22,195 bases of DNA. Source: a virus. The translations under genes were made by a program, and so were the position numbers. This document shows, in pieces, positions 3,831-16,735 of the stretch (its first letter is position 1; each line of letters opens with the position of its first letter). The stretch lies in IMG/VR virus record IMGVR_UViG_3300027833_000241, positions 1-22,195 of that record. The stretch is one strand, 5' to 3'. The notes under the pieces are model-generated. The model was not told where the DNA came from. It saw only the letters and a program-made list of their open reading frames with translations, and did not search any database.

Positions 3831-3844
3831 TTGTCTATTGCCTT

Positions 3845-5227
3845 TTACTTAGATAAGCCCTTAGCACTAGAATAAGCGAGGGTCAGTTGGGGTTTACTGT
3901 AGCCGTTCAAAGAAAGGTCTGTAATTGCCCACACCATAGCGTCAAGGCGGTCAGGAGAGCCAACTCGACCTAATGGCTCCCACGTTCTCATCTGTGTCTC
4001 AAGTTCATTCAGTGATGCACCATCAGGAGGATTAGAGACGTGCTTAACAAGTCCCCTTTCGTATAATGCAGATACTGGCTCGGCTCTAGCAAACTTCCCA
4101 CGAGAGGCTCTTACAGCCTTGTAGGATACACTATCGTCCTCACCATGAATGGTAGTCTTAACCATGTCACCACCCTGATTGACCTCGGCTACGATACGGT
4201 CAGCTTGGTAGTAATTATATAGTTGAATAGCTTTAGAGGCCCAACCCTGTGGGGATAGCCTATCAGTATAGTCCCCAAGGACATAAGCAATACCGTTGAT
4301 GTCAATACCAGCAACAACAATCCCAGTCATGTCACTCTCAGCATTAGAGGTAACAGCAGGATCAAGTGCAACGACAATACGAGCTAGGTCAGGTAAGTCT
4401 GCATGTTTAATTGCACAGTCATCTAACATAGCCGTAGTCCATAGAGCGCCTTCAGCTTCTTCTAGGACTTCAGCATAAAGCTCTTGTCTACCAATACGTG
4501 TTCCCTCGTACTGCTCCTTAACAGCAACAAGGTATGTATCAGCTAAGTTAGCAGCATTATCAAAGGTAGAACCACTTGTAACAATAGTCTTAGGGTTCTT
4601 AAGTAACTCACGCATTAACTTAGTAGGCTTGGGAGTTGTTGTAACGCACACTCTAGGGTGCTTACCTAGACGTAGACAGAACTGAAGCATCTGCCATGTG
4701 TCAATATCTTTGTTCCATGCAGCAAGCTCATCACACCATGCAGCGGAGAACTGTGGACCACGTAGACGCTCAGGCTCTTCTGCTGAGTAAAATTCTACTT
4801 TTGCACCATTGGCCCAACTCAAGGACCGCTTGGTAGGTGACCACTCAGGAAAGCCCATATGCTTACCCTTATGATCCTTGTCATGCTTCCAGCATACCGA
4901 TAGGAAACCACTCTCGCCCTTAACCATAACACGTTCAATGTCACTGTTAGTGGATGCTACACAGGCTATACGCTTATGACCTAGCTTGACTTGCTCTCGT
5001 ACCCACTCAGCACCACAACGTGTCTTACCGAAACCACGACCAGCATTGATTAACCATGTGTTCCACTCATTGTCAGTTGGAGGAAACTGTGCGTCTCTAC
5101 CCCAGAACGACCAATCATGTTGTAGCTCATCTACCTTAGCTGGTCCTAGCTGAGTGAATAGCTGTTTGACCTTAGCTGGTGGTAGCTGCCTAAGAGTATC
5201 AGCCGTTATTCTCTTCTTCGGGTTCAT
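3845..5227 (-). CDS. terL: Terminase large subunit (TerL)
   Basis: The packaging motor and nuclease, 460 residues from ATG 5227. The ATPase part has Walker A GRGFGKT (residues 63-69), a Walker B-like AAWCDELAAW, and the coupling-type VCVTTTPKPTKL segment. The C-terminal RNase H-like nuclease begins at VVALDPAVTSNAESDMTG, whose first Asp should bind catalytic metal, and ends near SPDRLDAMVWAITDL, another acidic cluster typical of TerL nucleases. A TTG codon at 5236 would add three residues, but AGGA sits about 10 bases before the ATG and would abut the TTG, so I chose the ATG. The start overlaps the TerS stop by 29 bases. Length is normal for a HK97/lambda-type TerL. Confidence 0.95.
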   Translation of the reverse strand: MNPKKRITADTLRQLPPAKVKQLFTQLGPAKVDELQHDWSFWGRDAQFPPTDNEWNTWLINAGRGFGKTRCGAEWVREQVKLGHKRIACVASTNSDIERVMVKGESGFLSVCWKHDKDHKGKHMGFPEWSPTKRSLSWANGAKVEFYSAEEPERLRGPQFSAAWCDELAAWNKDIDTWQMLQFCLRLGKHPRVCVTTTPKPTKLMRELLKNPKTIVTSGSTFDNAANLADTYLVAVKEQYEGTRIGRQELYAEVLEEAEGALWTTAMLDDCAIKHADLPDLARIVVALDPAVTSNAESDMTGIVVAGIDINGIAYVLGDYTDRLSPQGWASKAIQLYNYYQADRIVAEVNQGGDMVKTTIHGEDDSVSYKAVRASRGKFARAEPVSALYERGLVKHVSNPPDGASLNELETQMRTWEPLGRVGSPDRLDAMVWAITDLSLNGYSKPQLTLAYSSAKGLSK

Positions 5228-5615
5228 CAGTATCAAATCCTAGCAAGTTCATAAGTTGATCTGCTGCTGAGACATCAAGTTCGGGATCAGTCTCTTGGTC
5301 AACTTCATTAACTGTATTCTGTGGCGACCATCCAGCTTTAGCTCGTAAGGCCAACTCTTGAGACTTGTAAGTAGAAGAGTCCTTAACATCACCGTTGATA
5401 GCTTGGTCATAAACTCTAGAACCAATCTGCGACATAATGTCAGTATGCTCTTCATGCCAGAGCTTACCATAGTGCTTATAGAAGGTAGTCATAGAACTAG
5501 GGGCATCCTGCAAGTGCTGCATGGAAGCTAACGTCTCTCTCTTAGAGACACCACCACGGACACACTTAAGGACGTGCTTCTCTACGATCTTACTGTAAGG
5601 TAATTTCTCGGCCAT
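5199..5615 (-). CDS. terS: Terminase small subunit (TerS)
   Basis: The 138-residue product should recognise phage DNA and recruit TerL. Sequence identity to a named TerS family is not obvious; the call rests mainly on position directly upstream of and overlapping TerL, on length, and on layout. The N-terminal half (EKHVLKCVRGGVSKRETLASM, then SSMTTFYKHYGKLWHEEH) looks like a helix-turn-helix module. The middle is helical (QELALRAKAGW) and the C-terminus is strongly acidic (DTDEPEEENNG), as expected for the TerL-contacting tail. It is the first gene of the leftward operon; the mapped promoter-like element lies about 280 bases upstream. The ribosome binding site is weak (GTGAGA about 6 bases before the ATG). 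Confidence 0.8.
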   Translation of the reverse strand: MAEKLPYSKIVEKHVLKCVRGGVSKRETLASMQHLQDAPSSMTTFYKHYGKLWHEEHTDIMSQIGSRVYDQAINGDVKDSSTYKSQELALRAKAGWSPQNTVNEVDQETDPELDVSAADQLMNLLGFDTDEPEEENNG

Positions 5616-5764: not shown

Positions 5765-5878
5765 AACAACTACTACATCAACCTTAAAAAGTGTAACACT
5801 AGAGTAACTCTAGAGTAACTCTCTTATTGGTTGATGTGGTTGTTAATAACTCTAGAGCTACACTAGAGGTAACTTAAG
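5765..5878 (-). repeat. Iterated leader, copy A (inverted relative to copy B)
   Basis: Read on the - strand this 114-base block matches 12124-12238 with about 10 mismatches and one single-base gap, counted by eye (about 90% identity). It holds two adjacent AGAGTTACTCT units, further CTAGAGTTA-like units, and arms GGTTGATGT / ACATCAACC (5829-5837 and 5775-5783) that can pair around them. It lies between the promoter-like element and TerS, so it would be transcribed as 5' leader. Confidence 0.9.
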
Positions 5879-5889
5879 TAAGAGTTCTT

Positions 5890-5924
5890 ATTATACTATA
5901 TAGACCTTTTTAGGTTTTTAACAA
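5890..5924 (-). promoter_or_regulatory. Promoter-like element A (terminase operon)
   Basis: On the - strand TTGTTA (5919-5924), a 16-base spacer ending TAAAAAGGTC, then TATATA (5897-5902). The same arrangement occurs at 12081-12108 and 15961-15988. A perfect TATAAT lies just downstream (5890-5895), but at 23 bases from TTGTTA. It faces TerS, TerL and portal. Spacing fits a sigma-70 family promoter; the conserved spacer suggests a dedicated factor. Confidence 0.75.
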
Positions 5925-6004
5925 CCAAGTATTTTAACAAAAGTGAAACTATTTTATATGTCGTTGATAACGCTAGATTCTTTTATTGTTATTTTTGTGT
6001 TATT

Positions 6005-6020
6005 TTGTAACAATTCGTGA
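6005..6020 (+). repeat. TTGTAACAATTCGTGA motif, copy 1
   Basis: This 16-base motif recurs almost intact at 6162-6177 and 12065-12080. About 12 bases downstream is CCCCTGTTGACATGT, which resembles CCCCTTGTGGACATGT after the TGTAACAA at 6465. Possible operator or part of a promoter; no clear -10 hexamer follows here. Confidence 0.55.
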
Positions 6021-6161
6021 TGATTTCCCCTGTTGACATGTGGGTGGGTAAGTCAAAAGTAAATTCTTGTGTTGGATTTAGGGGGTGTTAAAGGGCTGCC
6101 GCCGAATCACTTTGCATAATTTAGAGGGTCCCAAGAGAAATGTCAATAGATTATTACGCCC

Positions 6162-6177
6162 TGTAACAATTCGTGAT
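6162..6177 (+). repeat. TGTAACAATTCGTGAT motif, copy 2
   Basis: Exact match to copy 1 over TGTAACAATTCGTGAT. It lies 10 bases before the first of the two tandem near-palindromes, so it may belong to the same control cluster. Confidence 0.55.
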
Positions 6178-6186
6178 CAGCCAGAG

Positions 6187-6238
6187 ATAGTTCAACGTTA
6201 AACTATAATCAAACAAAAGTAGTTCAACGTTAAACTAT
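6187..6238. promoter_or_regulatory. Two tandem near-palindromic operator candidates
   Basis: The sequence AGTTCAACGTTAAACTAT occurs twice, as the core of 6187-6206 and 6219-6238. Each 20-base site is nearly a perfect palindrome around AACGTT (the first copy has 9 of 10 base pairs). The copies are 32 bases apart, about three helical turns, so dimers would bind the same DNA face. No repressor-like gene is in the window; the binding protein is unknown. Confidence 0.7.
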
Positions 6239-6478
6239 ATGACTGGCAACAAAAATGTTACACTTATGAAAATAATCTAGTGAAGATCACAAAAGATATT
6301 GACAAACGAGGATAAGGGAATCGCCACACAACTCAACGAATCAACCATGCCCGTTGCCAAGCGAACCAACACAAGATCGGCGCGGGTTAACCTGCCCAAG
6401 CCCCTGATCAGTCACGACAACACCTGATGATCATCCCCCCTGATCAGCCCCTGATCTTGCTATATGTAACAAGTCCCC

Positions 6479-6506
6479 TTGTGGACATGTTCCAACCGTG
6501 TACAAT
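6479..6506 (+). promoter_or_regulatory. Rightward sigma-70-like promoter for the early operon
   Basis: TTGTGG (6479-6484), a 16-base spacer and TACAAT (6501-6506) lie about 65 bases before the first rightward gene. TGTAACAA is 7 bases upstream of it. It differs from the TTGTTA/TATATA elements and could be read by the host RNA polymerase. Confidence 0.5.
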
Positions 6507-6570
6507 GGGGGCACAACTTGCGGGAGCTATGGTTGATTCGCCCCTCCCGCCTAACCTTAGGAGACTTCTG

Positions 6571-6780
6571 ATGCCCTTTACTTATACCGATCTTATCGAC
6601 CTCGCCCTAAATATTGATTTAGAAAACCCTGATGCAGTGGCTGCATGGCGAGACCTATACCTTGTGCACCATAACGCCATGGCCCATTCCAAAACACTTG
6701 GATACGTTGGCGTGGGTTGCATCACCTATTCCGACAATGCTTTGACCGAGGCCTATAACGCTCACAAGGGGGCCAACTAA
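6571..6780 (+). CDS. Small hypothetical protein, first gene of the rightward arm
   Basis: A 69-residue protein starting MPFTYTDLIDLALNIDLENP. The frame is open further upstream to 6427, but the ATG at 6571 has a good ribosome binding site (TTAGGAG, 7 bases away) and lies after the promoter candidate, so I take this start. The sequence is helical and acidic with one hydrophobic patch (LGYVGVGCITY); no family is recognised. It overlaps the next gene by one base (TAATG). As first gene after the divergent region it may be expressed early. Codon use (no CTA leucine) matches the next three genes rather than the rest of the arm. Confidence 0.65.
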   Translation: MPFTYTDLIDLALNIDLENPDAVAAWRDLYLVHHNAMAHSKTLGYVGVGCITYSDNALTEAYNAHKGAN

Positions 6781-6908
6781 TGAAAAGCCTGATCATCACC
6801 GCTATTGCCGCGTATTGCCTAGGCCAATTCGCTTGGGCCTATCCAACCGCCGATGGCGTATCCTTCGGGTTCGCTGACTTTGGCTATCACTACGCCTTCA
6901 ACAACTGA
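6780..6908 (+). CDS. Small exported or membrane-anchored peptide
   Basis: A 42-residue product that begins MKSLIITAIAAYCLGQFAWA, a short positive N-terminus followed by a hydrophobic helix and an AWA-type cleavage site, i.e. a signal-peptide pattern. About 22 residues rich in aromatic residues follow (GVSFGFADFGYHYAFNN). It starts on the last base of the upstream stop (TAATG), which suggests translational coupling. The function is unknown; it may sit in the inner membrane or periplasm and act on the infected cell. It is too short for a homology guess by eye, and the coding call rests on coupling and the signal-like N-terminus. Confidence 0.55.
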   Translation: MKSLIITAIAAYCLGQFAWAYPTADGVSFGFADFGYHYAFNN

Positions 6909-6927
6909 TTAAATAAGGATTAAAACC

Positions 6928-7671
6928 ATGACTATGACACTTGAACAAACTATCGCCGCGATGCTCACCGAAAACACAGGAACCCATATGTTGGACAGTG
7001 GCGGTGCTAATGGCCGCGCTTGGCAACAAAACATGGGTAAAACTATTGACGACTTCAACGCTAAACCAAGCGCATATGCTGAAGTTTACGTGCGTGAATG
7101 GCAAGGCAAGCTCACCGCTGAAGTTTTACCGTGCGTTGATGTGTTCCACTTGTTAACGGGGGGCGCTTTAGAACTTGATGATCTTTGCAAAGAATTTAAT
7201 GCAAAGCCCGTTGATGATTGGGATGGGGATTATATGGGGGTATCAATCGCGGGTTGGGGGTTCTTAAATAAACACGGCTTCACGGCTGAAGGCGAGGGTT
7301 TTAATACCTACAATTGGGCCGCAAATCATAGCCAAGTTATGCAGGGCCAAGAACTGAAACTTGATGGGGAATACGGTGAGGAAACCTACATATTACTCCA
7401 AATTCACGGGGGTGCTGATGTCCGTGGCGGTTATACCGATGCAAAGTTGTTTAAGTTAGATGATCATGCGGAATTTTATAACGTGATCACTGAAGATTGC
7501 GGCTTTTCTGATGAGGAAGGTCAAAATAGCTTATCTTGGCACGGTGAGTGGATTAACGCTGAAGGCACTTGCGCTGATGATGATGAGTTGCTTGCCTTTG
7601 CATTATCTTGCGGGGCGTCACTTGAGAACCCTAGTGTTGTTGTTGTGGGGGATGCATATCTCGATTTCTAA
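6928..7671 (+). CDS. Conserved phage hypothetical protein (LDSGGANGRAWQ motif)
   Basis: A 247-residue soluble, acidic protein. Near the N-terminus is HMLDSGGANGRAWQQNMGK (residues 20-38), a signature I recognise from many phage proteins of unknown function, usually written LDSGGAYGRxWQ. The body has many Asp, Glu, Trp and Tyr residues and a Gly-rich ILLQIHGGADVRGGYTDAKL segment. The ribosome binding site AAGGA stands 9 bases before the ATG. A terminator-like hairpin follows 18 bases after the stop, so the first three genes may form their own transcript. No enzymatic motif is evident and I do not assign a function. The length and steady codon pattern leave little doubt that it is a real gene. 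Confidence 0.85.
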   Translation: MTMTLEQTIAAMLTENTGTHMLDSGGANGRAWQQNMGKTIDDFNAKPSAYAEVYVREWQGKLTAEVLPCVDVFHLLTGGALELDDLCKEFNAKPVDDWDGDYMGVSIAGWGFLNKHGFTAEGEGFNTYNWAANHSQVMQGQELKLDGEYGEETYILLQIHGGADVRGGYTDAKLFKLDDHAEFYNVITEDCGFSDEEGQNSLSWHGEWINAEGTCADDDELLAFALSCGASLENPSVVVVGDAYLDF

Positions 7672-7689
7672 GCTGCAAGATTGTATTTC

Positions 7690-7722
7690 AAGCCCGTTGC
7701 GTGTTTTGCGTTGCGGGCTTTT
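7690..7722 (+). terminator. Rho-independent terminator-like hairpin
   Basis: AAGCCCG (7690-7696) pairs with CGGGCTT (7714-7720) across a 17-base loop and is followed by TTTT (7719-7722). It sits between 7671 and the next start at 7760. The loop is long and the T-run short, so termination may be partial. Confidence 0.6.
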
Positions 7723-7759
7723 ACATGCAATCCCGCGTGATCTTATAAGGATAAAACCC

Positions 7760-8023
7760 ATGAAATACGAATTTCTTGATCTTCACATTGCAAGCGATGG
7801 ATGGCCCTTTTACGTGCAGCCTGATGGCACGGCTTCCGATACGCCCGACCCAACCGTTGCCGATCTCACTTTTGATTGCATAAGTGAGCTATACGATTTC
7901 GACCAAGTGACGCGCGGCACAATATCCGATCACGTAAAATACGCGCAACAACGCATTGATCACGGCTACCCATGCGAAACCGACGAAACCCTTGTGCTTT
8001 GGTATCGGGGGACTCTCGCATGA
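7760..8023 (+). CDS. Small hypothetical protein
   Basis: An 87-residue product beginning MKYEFLDLHIASDGWPFYVQ. The frame is open further upstream, but that part runs through the terminator and the previous gene; the ATG at 7760 has AAGGA 9 bases before it, in a context (TAAGGATAAAACCCATG) nearly the same as that of the gene at 6928. No family is recognised. The centre (DPTVADLTFDCISELYDF) is acidic and the C-terminus is ETDETLVLWYRGTLA. Codon use groups it with the genes at 6571-7671. It is the last gene before the repeat-rich stretch at 8024-8347. Confidence 0.7.
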   Translation: MKYEFLDLHIASDGWPFYVQPDGTASDTPDPTVADLTFDCISELYDFDQVTRGTISDHVKYAQQRIDHGYPCETDETLVLWYRGTLA

Positions 8024-8111
8024 TCTTGGACACTTTGGGCAAACGATACGCGCTCACCACCTGATCACCCGATTTCGACCAAATCCACCCGATCCACGGG
8101 ATCAAAAGGGA

Positions 8112-8334
8112 TGACCCCCACCGATGGAAAATGACCCCTCCGAGGGAATTAGAGAGATGACCCCCTCCGAGGGAATTAAAGATGGCTGGCAAGATTTTGT
8201 CGTGACCCCTACCGATGGAAAGCCAGATGACCTACCAGTGGAAATAATTCTTGATGTGGTCACACCGACCCTTGACCCTACCGAGGGAATTATGTACGGT
8301 CATTCGTAGAAGTTAACACCCCACCGTGGGAATT
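8112..8334 (+). repeat. Array of seven TGACCCC..CCGAGGGAATTA dyad repeats
   Basis: Copies begin at 8112, 8132, 8158, 8203, 8228, 8273 and 8314, all in the same orientation. The consensus is near TGACCCCTCCGAGGGAATTA with variants CCGATGGAAA and CCGTGGGAATTA. Inside it CCCTC-C-GAGGG or CCCAC-C-GTGGG forms a small dyad. Spacing is irregular (20-45 bases). Two more copies lie at 8728-8776. Because the unit recurs in different frames and between genes, it looks like a DNA or RNA signal rather than a coding repeat. Confidence 0.8.
8124..8309 (+). CDS. Doubtful small ORF built on the dyad repeats
   Basis: An open frame of 61 codons runs across the repeat array and would encode DPSEGI, TPSEGI, TPTDGK and DPTEGI units. 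The ATG at 8124 has no ribosome binding site; an internal ATG at 8157 follows GAGGGAATTAGAG. The same DNA repeat occurs outside this frame (8314-8334, 8728-8776), so the peptide repeats are more simply explained as by-products of the DNA repeats. I keep it because it is the only open frame of size here. The rest of 8024-8347 contains only the repeats and a GATCC-ACG-GGATC hairpin near 8090-8102. Confidence 0.25.
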   Translation: MENDPSEGIREMTPSEGIKDGWQDFVVTPTDGKPDDLPVEIILDVVTPTLDPTEGIMYGHS

Positions 8335-8347
8335 ATGGAGAAGACTG

Positions 8348-8506
8348 ATGGAAGTACGTGAGAAATATTACGAAGTTTACAAAGATGGCCAACTGGTATT
8401 AGAAGGTAGCCTTGATGATTGCACAGAAATAGCACTACACTCACTTGACGATGATTGCGTAGAAGTTTATGAAGTTCTCGTGACAGAGACTAAAGTATCA
8501 ATCTAA
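8348..8506 (+). CDS. Small hypothetical protein
   Basis: A 52-residue acidic protein beginning MEVREKYYEVYKDGQLVLEG and ending VYEVLVTETKVSI. The pattern (a two-strand hairpin, a short helix with DDCTEIALHSL, then a strand) looks like a small alpha-beta fold. The ribosome binding site GGAG is 7 bases before the ATG and lies directly after the last repeat of the upstream array (GTGGGAATTATGGAG). From here on, CTA leucine codons become common, unlike the four genes to the left. No family is recognised. Confidence 0.65.
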   Translation: MEVREKYYEVYKDGQLVLEGSLDDCTEIALHSLDDDCVEVYEVLVTETKVSI

Positions 8507-8526
8507 TCACCCAAAGGAATGAACCC

Positions 8527-8730
8527 ATGATTAACCGTTACATTGAAGACCAGAGACTTTACATCACGGTAGGCTCAGACGCCACAGAAGTAGAGTGTGA
8601 CCTGTCGTTTGACTCTACAGAAATCCCTTGCACCATTATGGATGGCCCACTGATGGGCTTCGAGATCATGCTGGATCGTGCTTTCATCCTACGCAAAGCT
8701 CGTGAAGAACAGGGGGAGGATGTCTATTGA
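8527..8730 (+). CDS. Small hypothetical protein
   Basis: A 67-residue protein, MINRYIEDQRLYITVGSDAT to KAREEQGEDVY, with alternating polar and hydrophobic residues that suggest beta strands followed by a C-terminal helix. AAAGGA lies about 8 bases before the ATG. Its stop (TGA 8728-8730) coincides with the start of another copy of the dyad repeat. Function unknown. Confidence 0.65.
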   Translation: MINRYIEDQRLYITVGSDATEVECDLSFDSTEIPCTIMDGPLMGFEIMLDRAFILRKAREEQGEDVY

Positions 8731-8776
8731 CACCCCCACGATGGAAATGTAGACGTACCCCTACAATGGAAATGGA
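8728..8776 (+). repeat. Two more dyad-repeat copies before the gene at 8784
   Basis: TGACACCCCCACGATGGAAA (8728-8747) and GTACCCCTACAATGGAAATG (8755-8774) match the repeat family at 8112-8334. The second copy leads straight into the GGAG ribosome binding site of the next gene. A similar CCCTGATGGAAATGGAG precedes the start at 18745. Confidence 0.65.
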
Positions 8777-8783
8777 GATCGAC

Positions 8784-8939
8784 ATGAAGACATACTCACT
8801 AGCCACCGAAGTAAATGGTATCGTAATGCACTTGGACTTACCATTATTTACTAGACAAGCAGCAGAGAATCACGCTAAGACGTTACGAGAGATGTCACCA
8901 GCATCACCAATATTTGTAATTAACAGAGCATCGGAGTAA
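8784..8939 (+). CDS. Small hypothetical protein
   Basis: A 51-residue product, MKTYSLATEVNGIVMHLDLP to SPIFVINRASE. The frame could begin at 8727, but that would translate the two dyad-repeat copies into a basic, unlike sequence; the ATG at 8784 has GGAG 6 bases upstream and is preferred. A strand-helix-strand pattern is visible (helix TRQAAENHAKTLREM). It resembles the many small phage proteins made early in infection, but no family can be named. Confidence 0.6.
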   Translation: MKTYSLATEVNGIVMHLDLPLFTRQAAENHAKTLREMSPASPIFVINRASE

Positions 8940-8943
8940 TAAC

Positions 8944-9204
8944 ATGAATACCATGAACAAAACCACAGTACGTGACATCATCAAGTCTCGTGGCACAAAG
9001 TTTGCCAGCGTTACCTTCATCAAGAAAGACGGCAGTGAGCGTAAGGTCAACGGCCTGTTCCGTCCAGCATCACACATCATTGGTAATGCTAAGGGCCGTG
9101 TCATCAGCGAAACCATGAAGGCTAACGGCTATGTTCCTATCTATTCTGTCGCTGAGAATAGCTGGAAGTGCTTTCACGAAGATGCAGTAGTGGAGATCAA
9201 CTGA
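8944..9204 (+). CDS. Small conserved phage protein, possible SH3-like barrel
   Basis: An 86-residue basic protein beginning MNTMNKTTVRDIIKSRGTKF. The block FASVTFIKKDGSERKVNGLF (residues 20-39) resembles the 'V-x-F-x-K-K-D-G-x-x-R' pattern of small phage proteins such as DUF2693 (predicted SH3-like barrel), often found in early regions. The remainder (NAKGRVISETMKANGYVPIY) is beta-rich. The family link is by motif memory only. GGAG is 7 bases before the ATG at 8944; a second in-frame ATG at 8953 is possible. The stop overlaps the next start (CTGATGG). Confidence 0.6.
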   Translation: MNTMNKTTVRDIIKSRGTKFASVTFIKKDGSERKVNGLFRPASHIIGNAKGRVISETMKANGYVPIYSVAENSWKCFHEDAVVEIN

Positions 9205-9284
9205 TGGATGATTACTGGGAAGACGATTGCCCACCTGATGTGGCAAAAGAGATCAACGAGTGGCTAGAGGAGGATGAGACATGA
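9204..9284 (+). CDS. Very small acidic protein
   Basis: A 26-residue open frame, MDDYWEDDCPPDVAKEINEW and a short tail LEEDET. It starts on the last base of the upstream stop and overlaps the start of the hydrolase gene by four bases (ATGA), so it is an in-line coupled unit. It has 12 acidic residues of 26. The end encodes the AGGAGG that serves the hydrolase gene, so part of its role may simply be to carry that site. No function is assigned. Confidence 0.4.
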   Translation: MDDYWEDDCPPDVAKEINEWLEEDET

Positions 9285-9679
9285 TGACATCTATGGTATG
9301 CCTAGCAGCGGCTATCTTCTTTGAGGCCAGAGATCAGCCAATAGAGGGTCAACTGGCCGTAGCGGATGTCGTGATGAACAGGGTAGAATCACCCCGATGG
9401 CCCGACGAAATATGTGCTGTTGTCTTCCAACCTAGTCAGTTCTCGTTCACCCACGATGGAAAGTCTGACAACTATCGTAAGTACACCAGCAATGTGGGCG
9501 ACAGACAAGCCATTGGTATTGCAGAAGAAATAGCTAAGTCAGTCATAAAAGGTGGTAGGCTAGGCTTGACAAGTACACACTACCACGCTACCTATGTATC
9601 ACCATACTGGCGAAAACAGTACCACTTAGATGGTCGCATAGGGGACCACTTATTTTACACAGCACCCGCAGGGAGATAA
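9281..9679 (+). CDS. Cell wall hydrolase, SleB/Hydrolase_2 family
   Basis: A 132-residue protein that matches the SleB-type domain (Hydrolase_2), lytic enzymes acting on peptidoglycan glycan strands. Visible hallmarks are AIFFEARDQPIEGQLAVADV (residues 11-30) with the presumed catalytic Glu of FEAR, the VMNRVESPRWPDEICAVVFQ segment, PSQFSF, and the C-terminal THYHATYVSPYW followed by IGDHLFY. The domain fills almost the whole protein, so this is a stand-alone phage lysin rather than a domain of a tail protein. No clear signal peptide is present; the first 14 residues are hydrophobic but lack a charged start. It lies among early-type small genes, far from the structural arm. Two adjacent ATGs (9281, 9284) both follow AGGAGG. 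Roles in lysis or in entry are both possible. Confidence 0.85.
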   Translation: MMTSMVCLAAAIFFEARDQPIEGQLAVADVVMNRVESPRWPDEICAVVFQPSQFSFTHDGKSDNYRKYTSNVGDRQAIGIAEEIAKSVIKGGRLGLTSTHYHATYVSPYWRKQYHLDGRIGDHLFYTAPAGR

Positions 9680-9683
9680 GACG

Positions 9684-9848
9684 ATGACACTAGAACTAGA
9701 GATGCAACTACGAGACATGGGCATCCTACCAGCAACCATGCTAGGAGAACTACAGGCTGTCGCTGACACTAAGCACACTTACCCAGACCTGTTAGTTAAG
9801 AACTACTTCAATGACCCCAGAGACGCAAACGGAGAGGTTCCATTTTAA
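9684..9848 (+). CDS. Small hypothetical protein before thyX
   Basis: A 54-residue product, MTLELEMQLRDMGILPATML to DPRDANGEVPF. It has a helical N-terminus and a TYPDLLVKNYFNDPRDA segment. GGGAGATAAG before the ATG can serve as ribosome binding site. Its stop TAA shares one base with the thyX start, so the two are coupled. Leucines use CTA almost throughout, the codon style of this arm. Function unknown. Confidence 0.6.
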   Translation: MTLELEMQLRDMGILPATMLGELQAVADTKHTYPDLLVKNYFNDPRDANGEVPF

Positions 9849-10513
9849 TGACACAGATTAAAGCAACATACGTAGACCACATGGGCAGTGACTTATCTGT
9901 CGTTAACGCAGCGAGAGTATCCTTTGGTAAGAAGAGTCACTTTGAAGGTCGTGTAGGTGGGCCTAATGTTCTAGCTGAACGTGATGCTAAGCTCATCAAC
10001 TACCTAGCCAAGCACAAGCACATCAGTCCCTTCGGTCATGCCTTTGCATCCTTCCATATTAAGGCACCCATCTTTGTAGCTCGTCAGTTAGTCAAGCATA
10101 AGTTCTTACGTTGGAATGAGATCAGTCGTCGTTACGTAGATGATGAGCCTGAGTTCTATGTGCCTGACGTATGGCGTGGACGTAGTGCTGACAAGAAGCA
10201 AGGCAGTGAAGGCGAGGTCAGACTTGGAACACTTGATGATGCTATAGTGTCGGACAGCCCACATGAGGCACTCTGTGCGTATAACTCATTGCTTGATGCA
10301 GGAGTAGCACCTGAGCAGGCTCGTATGGTACTACCACAATCAACTATGACAGAGTGGTACTGGAGTGGGTCATTGGACGCCTTCGCTGACATGTGTCGTC
10401 TGCGTTTACCTTCAGACACACAACAGGAGACACGTGTAGTTGCACAGCAAATTAGTAAAGTGCTAGGCACGTTGTTCCCAGTGTCGTGGGCTGCACTAAT
10501 GAGCAATCCGTGA
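9848..10513 (+). CDS. thyX: Flavin-dependent thymidylate synthase
   Basis: ThyX makes dTMP from dUMP using FAD, NADPH and methylene-tetrahydrofolate; phages carry it to supply dNTPs. The 221-residue length is normal for the family. Recognisable parts are VVNAARVSFGKKS near the N-terminus, HISPFGHAFASFHIKAPIFV (residues 58-77) and the signature region RQLVKHKFLRWNEISRRYVD (79-98). The family signature is RHRx7S; here it reads K83-H84-K85-x7-S93, so both Arg positions are Lys while the His and the distal Ser are kept. The C-terminal half has the usual GVAPEQARMVLPQSTMTEWY. With MazG and the class II reductase downstream it forms a nucleotide-supply set for replication. Confidence 0.93.
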   Translation: MTQIKATYVDHMGSDLSVVNAARVSFGKKSHFEGRVGGPNVLAERDAKLINYLAKHKHISPFGHAFASFHIKAPIFVARQLVKHKFLRWNEISRRYVDDEPEFYVPDVWRGRSADKKQGSEGEVRLGTLDDAIVSDSPHEALCAYNSLLDAGVAPEQARMVLPQSTMTEWYWSGSLDAFADMCRLRLPSDTQQETRVVAQQISKVLGTLFPVSWAALMSNP

Positions 10514-10546
10514 CGATCCTAATAAACAAATGATGGGAGAAACAGA

Positions 10547-10876
10547 ATGATTGAATACACAGTAAAGGTCTACCCTAATGGCACTAAGTCTTGGTACCTA
10601 AATGGTAAGTGTCACCGTGAGGACGGTCCAGCTGTTGAGTACGCTAACGGCTCTAAGTTTTGGTACCTAAATGGTAAGCGTCACCGTGAGGACGGTCCAG
10701 CTATTGAGTACGCTGGTGGCTATAAGTCTTGGTATCTAAACAACAAGGAGCTAACAGAACAAGAACATAAGAAAGCCACAACTAAGTCTACTTCATGCTC
10801 AGGCAAAGAAGTCGTAATTGATGGTGTTGTTTATGTCTTGAAGGAGAAAGGACAAGACGATGATGACAATAATTGA
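10547..10876 (+). CDS. Protein with WYLNGK-HREDGPA tandem repeats
   Basis: A 109-residue protein whose first 75 residues are tandem repeats of about 23 residues (69 bases): two full units with the core WYLNGK-x-HREDGPA-x-EYA and a third that ends as WYLNNKELTEQE. This unit is known from MORN-like / YwqK-type repeat proteins in phages, large viruses and bacteria, and forms beta-hairpin stacks; functions are mostly unknown. The repeats are nearly identical at DNA level too, which suggests recent duplication or gene conversion. The C-terminal tail (SGKEVVIDGVVYVLKEKGQD) is a separate short beta hairpin with an acidic end. The ribosome binding site is GGGAG, 8 bases before the ATG. Confidence 0.75.
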   Translation: MIEYTVKVYPNGTKSWYLNGKCHREDGPAVEYANGSKFWYLNGKRHREDGPAIEYAGGYKSWYLNNKELTEQEHKKATTKSTSCSGKEVVIDGVVYVLKEKGQDDDDNN

Positions 10877-11033
10877 TCCGCCGAGTGGCTGGAAGTATGG
10901 CTTCCCTAAACCACTCCCAGACGAGGTAGAGGATGTCTTGGAGTGGTTAGTTAGCGAAGGTTATCCACAGTCTGAAATAGATAAGCTGGGGAAGCACTTC
11001 TACTGTCGGTACTGGGAGACAGAAGATGAGTAG
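10860..11033 (+). CDS. Small hypothetical protein
   Basis: A 57-residue acidic protein beginning MMTIIDPPSGWKYGFPKPLP, then a helix DEVEDVLEWLVSEGYPQSEI and the end FYCRYWETEDE. The opening DPPSGWKYGFPKP is a pattern I have seen in small phage proteins, but no function is known to me. It overlaps the repeat-protein gene by 17 bases and the next gene by 8, and two adjacent ATGs (10860 and 10863) are possible starts. AAGGAGAAAGG upstream is a strong ribosome binding site. Confidence 0.65.
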   Translation: MMTIIDPPSGWKYGFPKPLPDEVEDVLEWLVSEGYPQSEIDKLGKHFYCRYWETEDE

Positions 11034-11355
11034 TAATTACAAACCTGACAACTGGGTTATCATAAAGTTTAAAGGGGATGACCCACACTACCGTGTTCTA
11101 GCTGGTTGGTCTGGTGGGTACATGACTGGAAACTCTTGGCGAATGAACAGTGGCATTACTTCTTTTCGTGAAGGTGATGAACACTATCTATTTTATGGAT
11201 CAAGTGGTTCTTGCTATAGTTGTGGTAGAGAGTCTTACATGCTGAGAATGAGTACTGCTGGCATCTGGAATCAACTACAAGAACTACACGGTGACAAAGT
11301 TGAAATGATGCCAGAAGATACAGACTGGATGAACATGGATTGGATTATATCATGA
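11026..11355 (+). CDS. Hypothetical protein, conserved in phages
   Basis: A 109-residue protein, MSSNYKPDNWVIIKFKGDDP onward. The segment YRVLAGWSGGYMTGNSWRMN followed by SGITSFREGDEHYLFYGSSG is reminiscent of a recurrent phage small-protein family. A CYSCG pair might bind metal, though only two Cys are close together. The C-terminus is acidic and Met/Trp rich (MMPEDTDWMNMDWIIS). It overlaps neighbours by 8 and 4 bases. Function unknown. Confidence 0.65.
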   Translation: MSSNYKPDNWVIIKFKGDDPHYRVLAGWSGGYMTGNSWRMNSGITSFREGDEHYLFYGSSGSCYSCGRESYMLRMSTAGIWNQLQELHGDKVEMMPEDTDWMNMDWIIS

Positions 11356-11516
11356 AGTTTACACACCAACACAGTGATGGCACAAAGATTGAAATAGAAA
11401 TGGCAGAACATGCGTCCATGGATGCTGTCCTTGAAGAGTTTCAAAACTTCCTTCGTGCTTGTGGATACGTAGTTGAATACAATCAATGTTTAGTTTTGGA
11501 GAATATGGATGACTAA
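11352..11516 (+). CDS. Small hypothetical protein before the sigma-like gene
   Basis: A 54-residue product beginning MKFTHQHSDGTKIEIEMAEH, with a helix DAVLEEFQNFLRACGY and the end VLENMDD. Strand-helix-strand layout. It starts inside the stop of the preceding gene (ATGA) and overlaps the sigma-like gene by 8 bases, so translation is likely coupled to it. A role as a partner of the sigma factor cannot be excluded but nothing in the sequence shows it. Confidence 0.6.
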   Translation: MKFTHQHSDGTKIEIEMAEHASMDAVLEEFQNFLRACGYVVEYNQCLVLENMDD

Positions 11517-12069
11517 GCTAACCACAGATGAGATCGTGACAATGTGCGAGAAACTAGCTCGTAAGTACAGACGACCCCACATGAACGACGATTTAGTGTC
11601 TGAAGGTGTCTTGGCTGTCTATGAGAGGTTGGAGGTTAAACCAGAGGAGTACCCTGCAAGCCTATACAGACGCGCTAACAAGGCCATGTACGATTACATT
11701 AACAGGAGGTCTAGGGTTGTACACATACCTTACACACGTACCGCTGAGAGTTTATCAAAGGGTGTAGAGTATAAACACGGCACATACTCTGAGAAAGGTA
11801 AAAAGGAACTGGCAAGAGCTTTATCAGCTACCTCAGTTAACTTTGATGACGCCTTCTCTCTATCTGTGCAAGATTGTACTCAAAAGTATGAGACTGAGGA
11901 CTTCTTATCAAAAGCATTTAAGTTGCTTAACGACATAGACGCGGAAATCATACACAAGAGGTACTTTAATGAGATGAAACAAGAGGAGGTAGCGGCAGAA
12001 TGTGGGATGTCTCAACAGGCTGTATTTAAGCGTGAAGTTGCCGCTTTAAATAAAATGTCACGGCTGTAA
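11509..12069 (+). CDS. Sigma-70 family-like RNA polymerase sigma factor
   Basis: A 186-residue protein with the two core parts of a small sigma factor. Region 2-like: MNDDLVSEGVLAVYERLE (about residues 25-42), then PASLYRRANKAMYDYINRRS and VVHIP, the usual order of the core-binding and -10-reading helices ending in the 'vriP' turn. Region 4-like: LLNDIDAEIIHKRYFNEMKQ and EEVAAECGMSQQAVFKREVA, a helix-turn-helix of the -35-reading type. The linker (residues 73-135) is longer than in ECF factors. It should redirect host RNA polymerase to phage promoters. It is the last gene of the early-type operon, and a TTGTTA/TATATA promoter-like element begins 12 bases after its stop. No phage RNA polymerase is seen in the window. 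The family call is good; which promoters it serves is inference. Confidence 0.75.
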   Translation: MTKLTTDEIVTMCEKLARKYRRPHMNDDLVSEGVLAVYERLEVKPEEYPASLYRRANKAMYDYINRRSRVVHIPYTRTAESLSKGVEYKHGTYSEKGKKELARALSATSVNFDDAFSLSVQDCTQKYETEDFLSKAFKLLNDIDAEIIHKRYFNEMKQEEVAAECGMSQQAVFKREVAALNKMSRL

Positions 12070-12080
12070 CAAATCGTGAG
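12065..12080 (+). repeat. TGTAACAAATCGTGAG motif, copy 3
   Basis: It differs from the copies at 6005 and 6162 by one internal base and the last base. It overlaps the stop of the sigma-like gene and abuts the TTGTTA of promoter-like element B, where an activator or repressor site would be expected. Confidence 0.5.
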
Positions 12081-12108
12081 TTGTTAGAACTCTAAAAAGG
12101 TCTATATA
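12081..12108 (+). promoter_or_regulatory. Promoter-like element B (primase-polymerase operon)
   Basis: TTGTTA (12081-12086), a 16-base spacer ending TAAAAAGGTC, TATATA (12103-12108). Same hexamers, spacing and spacer end as elements A and C. It lies in a 204-base gap between the sigma-like gene and the primase-helicase. Confidence 0.75.
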
Positions 12109-12123
12109 AGTAAGTGTAGCCCT

Positions 12124-12238
12124 CTTAAGTTACCTCTAGAGTTACGCTAGAGTTATTAAACTACTACATCAACCAATAAAAGAGTTACTCTAGAGTTACT
12201 CTGGTGTTACCCTTTTTAAGGTTGATGTAGTGGTTGTT
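12124..12238 (+). repeat. Iterated leader, copy B
   Basis: 115 bases matching copy A (5765-5878, opposite strand) at about 90%. AACTACTACATCAACC (12159-12174) can pair with GGTTGATGTAGTGGTT (12220-12235), 16 pairs with one G-U in RNA. The 45-base loop holds two AGAGTTACTCT units (12181-12202). It lies in the presumed 5' leader of the primase-helicase transcript. Attenuator, antitermination site, operator array and origin iterons are all possible. Confidence 0.9.
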
Positions 12239-12273
12239 AGACTTAAGACACCTCTAGATAAAGAAAGATAAAT

Positions 12274-13848
12274 ATGAGTGACAATAGTAACCTACCGTGC
12301 CCTTTTGTGTCGTGCGGCTCCTCAGATGCCTTTAGCTTTAATAGCAATGGTTATGGGAAGTGCCACTCGTGCAATACAAACTACCCATCTCGCGCAAATA
12401 CTTTTGATTGGGCTAAAGAAAAGTACCCTACAATAGAAAGAGACAAACCTACATTTACTCCTAAAGCTATTGAGCCGTTTGTTGTGTTAGACCCCAGCAG
12501 TGGAAAATATGAAAGTATGCGGGGTATTGATGAAGCGATAATGACTCAGTACAACGTACTAACTTTTCCAGATCGTCAGGAATATGTGTACCCTAGCGGG
12601 GGAATTAAAGTTCGTAAGTTGCCAGACAAGGCTTTCTTTGCTAAGTCTGGATTTAAGGCTGATGAACTGTTTGGAATGAACTTGTTTACTGCGGGTTGCA
12701 GTAAGATGGTAACTATCACTGAGGGTGAGTTAGATGCCCTTTCAGTGTATCAAATGGTTCAGAGTAAGTTCCCTACGCCTGTGGTGTCGTTACCCTCTGC
12801 TACGCCTTCTAGGAAGCTGTGGGAGAATTGTGCGGATTGGCTAAACAGTTTTGAGAAGATTGTTCTATCTGTAGATAACGATGACGCAGGAAATGCACTA
12901 GCAGACAACATTGCTAAGTTGTTTCCTAACAAGGTCTACCGTGTTGACCACAGACCTTACAAGGACGCTAACGAGTTCTTACAGGCGGGTAAGGGGGTTG
13001 ACTTCAAGGGGGCTTGGTGGGCAGCTAAGAAGTACACACCTGAGAATGTTCTAAATGGTGTAGATGACTTCTTGTCGTTATATCAGAACGCACCAGAGCA
13101 TGAATACGTGCCTACAGGGATTGAAGCACTAGACGCTAAAATATTGGGTCTAATGCAAGCTCACTTCACAGTAATTAAGGCACCCACTGGGATAGGCAAG
13201 ACGGAGATCATGAGGTACTTGGAGTACAATATGCTGCAACGTGGAGTACCAATCGCTGCAATGCACGTAGAGGAAACTAAGCTACGCTCTCTGCTCGGTC
13301 TTGTATCTTATGAATGTAATGACAACCTGACACGCAGGGATTTAATTGAACAGAAGGGGGCAGATGAGCAAGTAATTGCTGCCATTGAGAGTATCAACAA
13401 AGACGAACTTTATTACCAGTTCTTCATGGGTGATGGTCAAGGTTCTGATGAGTTGTGCGACCAGATCAGATACTTCAGTCAAGCCTGTGGGTGTAAGTTC
13501 GTATTCTTTGAGCCTATACAAGACGTAGTAGTAGGGTCATCTGCGGAGAGTAAGGAGGAGATGCTTGCTGATCTATCTATAAGACTATCTAAGCTGGCAG
13601 CAGAACTTAACGTGGGTATCGTTACTATCGCCCACACTAATGATGATGGAGACCCAAAGTATTGCAAGATGATTGGACAACGAGCTTCTGTCGTTATTGA
13701 CTTGTCACGGGAGAAAGAAGCAGATAGCTTAGAAGAACGGAACACGACTCACATCCGCGTTGAGAAGAACCGACCATGCTCAGAAGAGGGCAATGCAGGT
13801 ACAATGCGGTTTAACTTAGATACGTTTACATTAAGGGAAGTAAAATGA
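12274..13848 (+). CDS. DNA primase-helicase (T7 gp4-like)
   Basis: A bifunctional replication enzyme of 524 residues (T7 gp4 has 566): it lays RNA primers and unwinds the fork as a hexamer. An N-terminal zinc ribbon uses C9, C14, C30 and C33. The TOPRIM primase core shows TITEGELDAL (metal-binding Glu about 150) and LSVDNDDAG (about 199-207). The RecA-like helicase has Walker A APTGIGKTEIM (about 300-310), EPIQDVV as the Walker B region, and GIVTIAHTNDDGDPKYCKMI followed by the DLSREKEADS region. Its start lies after the promoter-like element and iterated leader; the ribosome binding site is weak (AAAGAAAG), so leader structure might control translation. The stop overlaps the next start (ATGA). 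Confidence 0.93.
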   Translation: MSDNSNLPCPFVSCGSSDAFSFNSNGYGKCHSCNTNYPSRANTFDWAKEKYPTIERDKPTFTPKAIEPFVVLDPSSGKYESMRGIDEAIMTQYNVLTFPDRQEYVYPSGGIKVRKLPDKAFFAKSGFKADELFGMNLFTAGCSKMVTITEGELDALSVYQMVQSKFPTPVVSLPSATPSRKLWENCADWLNSFEKIVLSVDNDDAGNALADNIAKLFPNKVYRVDHRPYKDANEFLQAGKGVDFKGAWWAAKKYTPENVLNGVDDFLSLYQNAPEHEYVPTGIEALDAKILGLMQAHFTVIKAPTGIGKTEIMRYLEYNMLQRGVPIAAMHVEETKLRSLLGLVSYECNDNLTRRDLIEQKGADEQVIAAIESINKDELYYQFFMGDGQGSDELCDQIRYFSQACGCKFVFFEPIQDVVVGSSAESKEEMLADLSIRLSKLAAELNVGIVTIAHTNDDGDPKYCKMIGQRASVVIDLSREKEADSLEERNTTHIRVEKNRPCSEEGNAGTMRFNLDTFTLREVK

Positions 13849-14099
13849 CATTCGATGAACACCTAGAAGAGAACACAGAGATGTGGGATATGTTTGTTAA
13901 GTACGCAATAAAGATTGGGGAGCAAGGTAAGAAGTTTTCTGCCGCTGGCATTTTCCACTTGATGCGCTACGAGACTATGGTAAAAGAAAACAACAGTGAG
14001 TTCAAGATCAGTCAGAACTGGTGCCCACTGTACGCAAGAAAGTTTCTGGAGGAACACCCAGAATATCCAATCTTTAGACTTAAGGAGCTACGCAGCTAA
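13845..14099 (+). CDS. Small conserved protein between primase-helicase and polymerase
   Basis: An 84-residue mostly helical protein, MTFDEHLEENTEMWDMFVKY onward, with SQNWCPLYARKFLEEHPEYP near the end. This closing pattern ('NxxPxYARxFxEEHPEY') is familiar from small proteins in phage and bacterial replication regions, with no known function. It overlaps the primase-helicase stop by four bases and the polymerase start by one, so all three are translated in line. A role in replication is suggested only by position. Confidence 0.75.
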   Translation: MTFDEHLEENTEMWDMFVKYAIKIGEQGKKFSAAGIFHLMRYETMVKENNSEFKISQNWCPLYARKFLEEHPEYPIFRLKELRS

Positions 14100-15946
14100 T
14101 GACAACAGTATTCGACATTGAAACAGACGGTCTTTTAGATGAGATGACCAAGATTCATGTCATGTCTTGGTCTAACGACATGGGTGAAGTTAAGCATACC
14201 CATGACTACGATGAGATGCGTTATGTGTTACTCAACACTGGTACTCTGGTGGGTCACAACATTATCCGCTTCGACATACCCGCCGTGGAAAAGTTACTTG
14301 GTATCAAAGTAAAGGCACGTCTGATCGACACGCTGGCACTTAGTTGGTACATCAACCACGGACGTATGAAGCATGGCCTTGAGGGCTACGGAGAGGAGTA
14401 TGGAGTGCCTAAGCCAGTGATTAAGGACTGGAACACCCTGACGCCTCAAGAGTACGCTCACAGGTGCGATGAGGACGTTAAGATCAACAACCGTTTATGG
14501 CGTGACTTAAGCCTTAAGCTAAACAGACTGTACAGTGATACACCAGAAGACAAAGAAAGTCTGATTGACTATCTGTCGTTCAAGCTAGACTGCGCTAGAG
14601 AGCAGGAAGACCTACGATGGAAATTAGACGTACCAAAGGCGCAAGAAGCCTACGACGAAATTAGCCGTCTCAAAGAAGAGAAGGTTGATCAACTGGCAGA
14701 GGCTATGCCTAAGCGTACCCTTGAGCGTATGGCAGCAAAGCCAAAGGTTATGCACAAGAAAGACGGAGAGTTATCATCACACGGTGAAAAGTGGGTGGCT
14801 CTCTGCAAGGAGTACAAGCAGTCTGTGACAACAATAGCCTTTAAGGTTAAAACAGGAGAGGAACGGGGAAACCCAAACTCTAACGATCAGGTTAAGGATT
14901 GGCTACGGTCTTTAGGCTGGAAACCACGTACATTTAAATTCGTAAGGGATAAGAAAAGTGGAGAACCAAGACAGATTGAGCAGGTACGCAAAGGCTCTGA
15001 CTTATGCAGTAGCGTTCGGGAACTTTCTTCTGTTGATCCTGCTGTTGACTTGCTTGATGGCCTTACTGTTCTTACTCACCGCGCAGGGATACTGAAGAGC
15101 TTCTTAGAGGGTCACACAGATGGCTACCTACAGGCTGGTGTCGCTGGGCTTACGAATACGTTCCGCTTCAAGCACTTTAAGCCACTGGTTAACCTACCCA
15201 GCGTAGACAAGCCTTATGGTGATGTGATCCGAGGGTGCCTGATTGCACCAGAAGGTTATGTGCTATGTGGTGCTGATATGACATCATTAGAGGATACGAC
15301 CAAGCGTCACTACATGAAGCCACTAGACCCTAACTATGTACAGGAGATGAGCCGTGAAGGTTTTGACCCACACTTAGACTTAGCACTACACGCTGGTCTT
15401 ATTAAGCAGAGTGACATCGACATGCACAACTCAGGTGAGCGATCACTTAAGGAGTTGCGTAAGAACTACAAGGTTGTTAACTACAGCGCCACGTATGGCA
15501 TTGGAGCAGCAGCACTTGCAAGAGGTACTGGCATGAGTAAGAAGGCTAGTCAGACCCTCTTAGATGCCTTCTGGTCACGTAACTGGGCCATTGAGAAGGT
15601 AGCCAGTGGAGCAAAGACAAAGGAAGTGTTGGAAGGCATGTGGCTTAAGAACCCAGTGTCAGGTTTCTGGCATAGCCTACGAAGTGACAAAGATCGTTTC
15701 AGTACGCTCAATCAGAGCACTGGAGTATTCTGTTTTGATACATGGGTTGCACTGTGTCGTAAGAACGGAATTAAGTGTGTCGGTCAGTTCCACGATGAGG
15801 TGATTGCCCTAGTCAAGAAAGGAGAAGAGGATGCAGTAGAAAAATTAATGCACGATGCTGCTATCAAGTTGAATGAAAAGGTAAAACTTAATGTTCCACT
15901 AGGTACAGATGTGCAGTTCGGCAACACTTATGCTGATATTCACTAA
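14099..15946 (+). CDS. DNA polymerase, family A (T7-like, with 3'-5' exonuclease)
   Basis: Replicative polymerase of 615 residues. The proofreading domain has Exo I FDIETDG (residues 5-11), Exo II GHNIIRFDIP and Exo III HRCDEDVKINNRLW. Polymerase motif A is ADMTSLED (metal-binding D393; E398 at the steric-gate position), motif B is RKNYKVVNYSATYG with K458 and, four residues on, Tyr462, and motif C is QFHDEV (D566, E567). Tyr462 aligns with E. coli Pol I F762 and T7 Y526, a position used to sort marine phage polymerases. All catalytic residues seem present. Size is a little below T7 gp5 (704). It starts one base into the previous stop (TAATG). Promoter-like element C follows its stop by 14 bases. 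Confidence 0.96.
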   Translation: MTTVFDIETDGLLDEMTKIHVMSWSNDMGEVKHTHDYDEMRYVLLNTGTLVGHNIIRFDIPAVEKLLGIKVKARLIDTLALSWYINHGRMKHGLEGYGEEYGVPKPVIKDWNTLTPQEYAHRCDEDVKINNRLWRDLSLKLNRLYSDTPEDKESLIDYLSFKLDCAREQEDLRWKLDVPKAQEAYDEISRLKEEKVDQLAEAMPKRTLERMAAKPKVMHKKDGELSSHGEKWVALCKEYKQSVTTIAFKVKTGEERGNPNSNDQVKDWLRSLGWKPRTFKFVRDKKSGEPRQIEQVRKGSDLCSSVRELSSVDPAVDLLDGLTVLTHRAGILKSFLEGHTDGYLQAGVAGLTNTFRFKHFKPLVNLPSVDKPYGDVIRGCLIAPEGYVLCGADMTSLEDTTKRHYMKPLDPNYVQEMSREGFDPHLDLALHAGLIKQSDIDMHNSGERSLKELRKNYKVVNYSATYGIGAAALARGTGMSKKASQTLLDAFWSRNWAIEKVASGAKTKEVLEGMWLKNPVSGFWHSLRSDKDRFSTLNQSTGVFCFDTWVALCRKNGIKCVGQFHDEVIALVKKGEEDAVEKLMHDAAIKLNEKVKLNVPLGTDVQFGNTYADIH

Positions 15947-15960
15947 ATTAAAAAGTTTGG

Positions 15961-15988
15961 TTGTTAAAACGATAAAAAGGTCTATATA
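15961..15988 (+). promoter_or_regulatory. Promoter-like element C (SSB operon)
   Basis: TTGTTA (15961-15966), a 16-base spacer ending TAAAAAGGTC, TATATA (15983-15988), then GTATAGTA, very like element A. It lies in the 79-base gap before the SSB gene and lacks the iterated leader found after A and B. The start codon is 37 bases downstream. Confidence 0.75.
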
Positions 15989-16025: not shown

Positions 16026-16535
16026 ATGGGTAAAACAGTAATAGTAGAGTGCGAAGTTGAATGGGCTAAGTTGCGAGAAGAGGATCGTGACATGGGACCA
16101 AAAGACGGTTCTGATATGGCTATCAACATGGAAGCAAAGCAAGGTATCTATGTTGTAAACCTAATGCTTACTGAGGAGAGTAAAGCTAAGATGATTAAAG
16201 ATGGTGTACCAAATAAGGGTCTCCAAGCTCAGTTGTTTAAGACCGACAAAGAAGGTCGCATGTTCTACAAAGCGACACGACCACACTTTAATCCTAAGTT
16301 CCGTAATCAGGAAACTGGAGAGCAGGGTGTTACAGTGGGTTCACCTGCCTTGTTTAAGAAGGTGGGAGGAGATTACACCCCTTGGAACTGGGAAGAAGAC
16401 GGGCTAATCGGTAACGGCTCTAAGGCGATTGTTAAGCTGGACGTGTGGGACGGTAAGATCACCACACTAGAAAAAGTAGCGATTGTTGACCATGTAGTTT
16501 ATGAATCAAATACAGATGATCGGAGCGTTTTCTAA
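16026..16535 (+). CDS. Single-stranded DNA-binding protein (T7 gp2.5-like)
   Basis: A 169-residue protein that should coat ssDNA at the fork and contact polymerase and primase-helicase. The GIYVVNLMLTEESKAKMIKD region, the KATRPHFNPKF block, SPALFKK and the IGNGSKAIVKLDVWDG segment form the OB-fold pattern known from phage gp2.5-type SSBs. The C-terminus is NTDDRSVF: a short acidic tail closed by Phe, the hallmark by which gp2.5 binds its partners, though less acidic than T7's. It has its own promoter-like element and a good ribosome binding site (AAGGAAG about 7 bases upstream), as fits a protein needed in large amounts. The call relies on motif memory plus context between polymerase and exonuclease. 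Confidence 0.8.
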   Translation: MGKTVIVECEVEWAKLREEDRDMGPKDGSDMAINMEAKQGIYVVNLMLTEESKAKMIKDGVPNKGLQAQLFKTDKEGRMFYKATRPHFNPKFRNQETGEQGVTVGSPALFKKVGGDYTPWNWEEDGLIGNGSKAIVKLDVWDGKITTLEKVAIVDHVVYESNTDDRSVF

Positions 16536-16735
16536 TGCAAGTGACAATAACATTTACGCCTGAGAGTGAAGACGATGGGTTTGAGGGTAGCACAACAGTG
16601 GTCCGTGGCAACATTGATGACCTCTACGGGCTAGGGTACGCCTTTGCAGACGCAGCACGGGCAGGGGGTTATACATATGTACAAGATGTAGCCTTTGAGA
16701 AGGACAATGGTGAAATGGTGTTTGGGGGGTTCTAG
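16535..16735 (+). CDS. Small hypothetical protein between SSB and exonuclease
   Basis: A 66-residue acidic protein, MQVTITFTPESEDDGFEGST to GEMVFGGF. Beta-alpha-beta pattern with DLYGLGYAFADAARAGGYTY as the helix. It shares one base with the SSB stop (TAATG) and one with the exonuclease start (TAGTG), so it belongs to the same translational chain. The end of its frame encodes a run of G that acts as ribosome binding site for the exonuclease. No family recognised. Confidence 0.65.
   Translation: MQVTITFTPESEDDGFEGSTTVVRGNIDDLYGLGYAFADAARAGGYTYVQDVAFEKDNGEMVFGGF

Follow-up and report, generated by a model that had tools for sequence, protein, structure and literature searches.

The window, which is the whole stretch of DNA analysed here and a 22,195-base fragment of a virus record, contains three exact copies of a promoter-like element, TTGTTA-N6-TAAAAAGGTCTATATA. 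These elements, the genes around them and the smaller features of the region are located as follows.

5897-5924, minus strand: element A, promoter-like TTGTTA-N16-TATATA with the GTCTATATAGTA core, before the terminase, portal and structural genes
12081-12108, plus strand: element B, promoter-like, 12 bases past the stop codon of the sigma gene and before the primase-polymerase genes
15961-15988, plus strand: element C, promoter-like, after the DNA polymerase gene and before the gene at 16026-16535 and the genes beyond
2-5615, minus strand: genes presumably read from element A (small terminase, large terminase, portal and a further gene running off the window)
12274-15946, plus strand: genes presumably read from element B (primase/helicase, a small gene and DNA polymerase A)
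16026-22194, plus strand: genes presumably read from element C (the gene at 16026-16535, exonuclease, PAPS-reductase-like, endonuclease I and ribonucleotide reductase)
11509-12069, plus strand: phage sigma factor of the sigma-70 family, 186 amino acids, with regions 2 and 4 (Pfam, PHROG, structure model and fold search)
11782-11787, plus strand: codons of Thr92 and Tyr93, residues that co-vary with the dinucleotide directly upstream of the GTCTATATA core
12013-12018, plus strand: codons of Gln169 and Gln170, with which the region 4.2 recognition helix begins; these residues co-vary with -35 bases 4 and 3
12065-12079, plus strand: conserved sequence TGTAACAAATCGTGA, directly upstream of element B and overlapping the sigma stop codon, with copies also at 6006-6020 and 6162-6176 (plus strand)
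5765-5844, minus strand: leader hairpin downstream of element A (z -3.6), 93% alike to the hairpin downstream of element B
12159-12238, plus strand: leader hairpin downstream of element B (z -5.5)

The three elements had been singled out in a sequence-only reading by their identical spacer end, and they prove to be exact and unique in the window. Not one of 100 dinucleotide shuffles of the window gave even a single copy of TTGTTA-N6-TAAAAAGGTCTATATA (three observed), and no fourth copy is present in the window when up to three mismatches are allowed. The looser pattern TTGTTA-N16-TATATA, allowing two mismatches, occurs four times in the window against a mean of 2.6 expected, which is not significant. 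Because this looser pattern alone is not above chance, it is the identical end of the spacer that gives the observation its weight.

Family matches back the primase/helicase, DNA polymerase A, 5'-3' exonuclease, B12-dependent ribonucleotide reductase, large terminase and portal genes. The gene at 16026-16535, which had been called 'SSB', has no family match, and this label is only putative. In a relatedness search, the polymerase and reductase of the window were related to those of phages of the Cobavirus group and Zobellviridae.

The product of the gene at 11509-12069 has both the region 2 and the region 4 domains of the sigma-70 family. In Pfam, Sigma70_r4 matches with 31 bits (E 1.8e-7), above the cut-off of 24.1, and Sigma70_r2 with 21.5 bits (E 2e-4), below the cut-off of 24. 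The gene also matches PHROG 351, 'RNA polymerase sigma factor', with E 1e-12. The best PDB sequence matches are SigB, SigF, FliA and RpoH, which are group 3 sigma factors, and the top matches of a fold search with the structure model are mostly sigma factors, with TM scores that are low because of the domain arrangement. In the model, the recognition helix comprises residues 169-184, so that residue 169 is its first. Residues 92-93 are modelled with modest confidence (pLDDT about 70, pTM 0.42) as a loop after region 2, which perhaps corresponds to the sigma-70 region that reads the extended -10. An ECF sigma factor was considered and rejected. ECF-type promoters have a GGAAC or AAC -35, 16-17 bases and a CGTC-like -10; the possession of regions 2 and 4 alone would fit this class, but the -35 here is TTGNNA-like and lies 13 bases from GTC.

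Relatives of the sigma gene, gathered from IMG/VR down to about 35% identity, comprise 51 sequences once duplicates are removed. One of these ends at the end of its contig, which leaves 50 with sequence past the stop codon. The element lies directly after the sigma stop codon in all 50, mostly exactly 591 bases from the sigma start. Loss of the element in relatives that keep the sigma gene would count against a shared regulon; it was looked for among these 50, and none has lost it. The layout of the window recurs in the relatives, with A before the small terminase, B after the sigma gene and C after DNA polymerase; the A and C sites were determined independently. Exactly three close copies are found in contigs of 34 and 36 kb, as in the complete 45-kb genome of phage CRP-6; a fourth match in the 36-kb contig, with three mismatches, was counted as chance. 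Most relatives are metagenome fragments, and the distinct genomes with multiple sites number only 25. Bacterial and archaeal genomes yielded only one relative locus, which is weak and partial. Many further loci retrieved with the pattern GTCTATATAGTA or GACGTCATA were chance matches without the neighbouring genes and were left out. Some sigma genes have nearly identical N-terminal parts and very different middle and C-terminal parts (L122 and L140, L147 and L153), which suggests that the specificity part of the factor may be exchanged between phages.

Roseobacter phage CRP-6 (MK613348) is the closest isolate to the window phage. The two are alike in their polymerase (69%), reductase (85%) and gene order, and CRP-6 has a homologous sigma gene, gp14, annotated as 'hypothetical protein' and 30% identical. 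Its element, TTGACT-N13-GACGTCATA, occurs at the same three places (4113, 8052 and 42191), including upstream of the small terminase, and the core is nowhere else in its 45 kb. The laboratory host of CRP-6 is FZCC0042. An unsupervised search of its non-coding 9-mers gave only two candidates, one of which is the GACGTCATA core. Unlike the window phage, CRP-6 has other -35, dinucleotide and core sequences, and its sigma factor has Lys169 and a deletion around 92-93. CRP-6 has been described as mosaic and as forming a separate group (PMC6918029), and the terms 'sigma factor' and 'promoter' are absent from the text of that genome paper.

The elements of one genome change together. For the 25 genomes with at least two sites, likeness between sites was compared within and between genomes by using 20,000 shuffles. 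The -35 hexamers agree at 5.4 of 6 positions within a genome versus 3.4 between genomes, the dinucleotide before the core at 2.0 of 2 versus 0.89, and the core at 8.92 of 9 versus 7.88 (0 of 20,000 shuffles in each case). The first half of the spacer, which served as an internal control, agrees at 2.8 of 7 positions within genomes versus 2.49 between them (921 of 20,000 shuffles). The conserved spacer of the sequence-only reading therefore holds for its final six bases, and most of all for the dinucleotide preceding GTCTATATA, whereas sites of one genome do not have its first half in common. Had the sites descended independently, such within-genome agreement would not have arisen, which argues for a shared reader.

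That reader might be the host's own sigma-70, possibly with a phage activator, in which case the elements would be ordinary host promoters and the sigma-like protein a decoy or an anti-sigma factor. Elements A and C of the window do resemble sigma-70 promoters (TTGTTA-18-TATAGT, 9 of 12) closely enough that the host factor could use them, and element A has a stronger site of host type, TTGACA-17-TAAATT, nearby. In the relatives, however, the -35 becomes GTTACA, GTCTAA, GTATAA or TTCTAG, changed alike at all sites of a genome, and it moves with residues 169-170 of the phage sigma factor. Host sigma-70 would not follow such changes, because its region 4 is reported to be highly conserved, R584 and E585 included (PMC8407463). 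We therefore consider the host-promoter explanation very improbable.

Each sigma residue was compared with each promoter base, with no prior choice of positions. Base 4 of the -35 follows residue 169 in all 50 of the 50 genomes, Gln going with T (30), Lys with A (12) and Arg with C (8), and -35 base 3 can be predicted from residue 170 in 90%. Residue 92 corresponds without exception to the first base of the dinucleotide, with Asn accompanied by G (25) and Thr, Ser, Asp or Glu by A (19), and a gap at this residue pairs with C in six CRP-6-type rows. For residue 93 and the second base of the dinucleotide, the figure is 94%. When the specificity columns are left out of tree building, residue 169 and -35 base 4 change nine times each on the resulting tree. 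Neutral bases were simulated on this tree with 8-10 changes in 1500 runs; none matched the observed association for residues 169, 170 and 92, and 13 did so for residue 93. For -35 bases 1, 5 and 6, association with single residues is no better than in the neutral simulations. Those of core bases 4-6 go back to deep splits between clades instead of repeated switches, and no claim is made for either set of bases.

The residue 169 code is also kept at sites that lie 4-6 kb away from the gene (26 of 26 C sites and 6 of 6 A sites), so linkage to the end of the sigma gene does not explain the pairing. A near-minimal pair is provided by L017 and L028, whose sigma factors are 90% identical in the shared part and differ at 14 residues, including Q169R; L017 has Arg169, and L028, of one type with L015, has Gln169. 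Their B elements differ by a single base, T to C. Residues 169 and 170 presumably occupy the places of R584 and E585 of E. coli sigma-70, judging from a gapless alignment of the conserved helices by eye against the established E. coli sequence. In classical pairings, Gln contacts the adenine opposite T and Arg the guanine opposite C. The E. coli residues R584 and E585 have reported contacts with template bases -31 and -33, respectively (PMC2613000). The base tracked by residue 169 is number 4 of the hexamer, one position upstream of base 5, which goes with R584 of sigma-70; the contact geometry is thus displaced by one base. The co-variation of residue 169 with base 4 and of residue 170 with base 3 points to base-specific reading of the -35 by region 4.2 of the phage factor.

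In a different account of the same co-variation, a phage repressor or activator uses the elements as operators, and the changes in the sigma residues only happened to fall on the same lineages. Such a protein may bind TGTAACAATTCGTGA (12065-12079, 6006-6020 and 6162-6176, plus strand), which is a further conserved sequence. This sequence lies upstream of B in nearly all relatives, with one base different in CRP-6, and its two further copies in the window are in the divergent region. It varies neither with the sigma type nor with the element type and probably serves another protein. Moreover, the nine parallel exact switches occur at a residue homologous to a known base contact of sigma-70, and none of the 1500 neutral simulations reproduced them. 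The operator account is accordingly given a very low probability, somewhat below that of host promoters.

Because its residues co-vary with the promoter bases, the phage sigma factor is in all likelihood the reader of the elements. The three sites very probably form a small regulon in which this factor, acting with the host core polymerase, would read exactly A, B and C through a two-part recognition. This agrees with the earlier proposal that a special factor reads all three sites as one regulon, to which the retention of the element with the sigma gene and the residue-base co-variation now lend support. The factor would be made as the last gene of the first operon, would join host core RNA polymerase and would direct it to the three elements. 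Element A would then drive the packaging and structural genes, B the primase-polymerase genes, and C the genes at the SSB position together with the exonuclease and reductase genes. Within the factor, residues 169-170 of the region 4.2 helix are predicted to read -35 bases 4 and 3, and residues 92-93, after region 2, are predicted to read the dinucleotide in front of the -10-like GTCTATATA core.

A phage RNA polymerase encoded in the missing part of the genome is a further conceivable reader, since the window is a fragment and CRP-7 and other marine phages have a single-subunit RNA polymerase. Searches for such an enzyme, in which T7 and CRP-7 were detected as positive controls, gave no family match in complete CRP-6, whose three sites are arranged in the same way, or in four long contigs (34, 36, 32 and 23 kb). 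A T7-type polymerase regulon was rejected on this basis, and the sequence-only remark that no phage RNA polymerase is visible extends to these genomes. In addition, the element has two parts at a constant distance, and the co-varying residues sit in the sigma protein. A reader of this kind is hardly credible.

If the sigma factor reads the elements, the order of expression might be that host polymerase transcribes the early operon, that sigma is then made, and that the remaining operons follow. No clear host promoter was found for the early operon on the plus strand. The host-like promoter TTGACA-17-TAAATT lies at 6146-6118 (minus strand), upstream of element A and in the same direction, so early transcription of the structural genes is also possible. 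A similar sequence appears to recur in CRP-6, L006, L019 and L029.

Sigma factors made by phages, such as T4 late sigma gp55 and the SPO1-type factors, redirect host core polymerase to later genes. The regulon predicted here is alike in this respect. T4 late promoters consist essentially of only a -10 element, and further phage proteins are needed. In contrast, the present factor would use both a -35 read by region 4.2 and the upstream dinucleotide. Residues of bacterial ECF sigma factors and their promoter bases reportedly co-vary and define specificity (Todor et al. in PNAS, 2020, cited in PMC12153292), which resembles the co-variation described here. Those factors, unlike this one, are stress sigmas of bacteria and not viral, and the spacing from -35 to core and the sigma type differ. 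The Zobellviridae phages PA11, CW02 and T2S2 are alike in having related polymerases and small sigma genes near the polymerase, but these genes stand between those for primase and polymerase, and a search for a matching three-site element in PA11 and CW02 found none. In T2S2 (L033), which has its own sigma gene, a 12-base motif, AATGGGGTCATA, occurs at three non-coding places, 3684 (plus), 12062 (minus) and 40144 (plus); it was rejected as a set of promoters because its orientation does not fit. At these places, TACC precedes GGGGTCATA by 20 bases.

Phage sigma factors and sigma-promoter co-variation were already known separately. The whole three-promoter regulon of the present marine lineage and its repeatedly switched code appear to be new within the open-access papers searched. 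Related marine phages have been described in papers as lacking an RNA polymerase, and the papers on them that were searched have no word on promoters or sigma factors. A candidate factor and its promoters can now be named for these phages. The broader proposal, for which we see about equal grounds for acceptance and doubt, is that phages of this family keep rewriting their sigma-promoter code. A single amino acid would have switched nine times or more, each time together with the same base change at all readable promoters, and transcription might thereby be kept private from relatives in a shared host. The natural code would consist of Gln-T, Arg-C and Lys-A in region 4.2 and of Asn-G and Thr/Ser/Asp/Glu-A in the segment after region 2. 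The family would then be a natural experiment in which one amino acid and one base were switched together about nine times. Its natural protein-promoter pairs make the sigma recognition code directly testable, and the regulon of an uncultured phage in the group would be predictable from a few residues.

The leader hairpins downstream of A and B have no counterpart after element C in the window. The hairpin is strong in the window and in L009, where a different sequence occupies the same place, but not in L019 or CRP-6, and it was therefore left out of the core claim. Rfam gave no match in the window, CRP-6 or L019. At 6176-6239 the window has two 32-base direct repeats with the near-palindrome TAGTTCAACGTTAAACTA, of which three copies occur in L006; these repeats are possibly an operator or an origin.

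GANTC is the site of CcrM methylation and of GcrA in alphaproteobacteria. It forms dense arrays in CRP-6 (L031, 42433-44387), L168 (184-4862), L019 (3451-6996) and L052 (around 7200-8200), with 13-19 sites per kb versus an average of 1.5-3.7 per kb. All arrays are near the terminase or early region, and the N and the flanking bases vary. GANTC is rare outside the arrays, and the window has 30 sites versus about 85 expected, with a weak array at 5976-6535. The early region of the window also contains, at 8093-8340, repeats of about 20 bases comprising TGACCCCTCCGAGGGAATTA and its variants.
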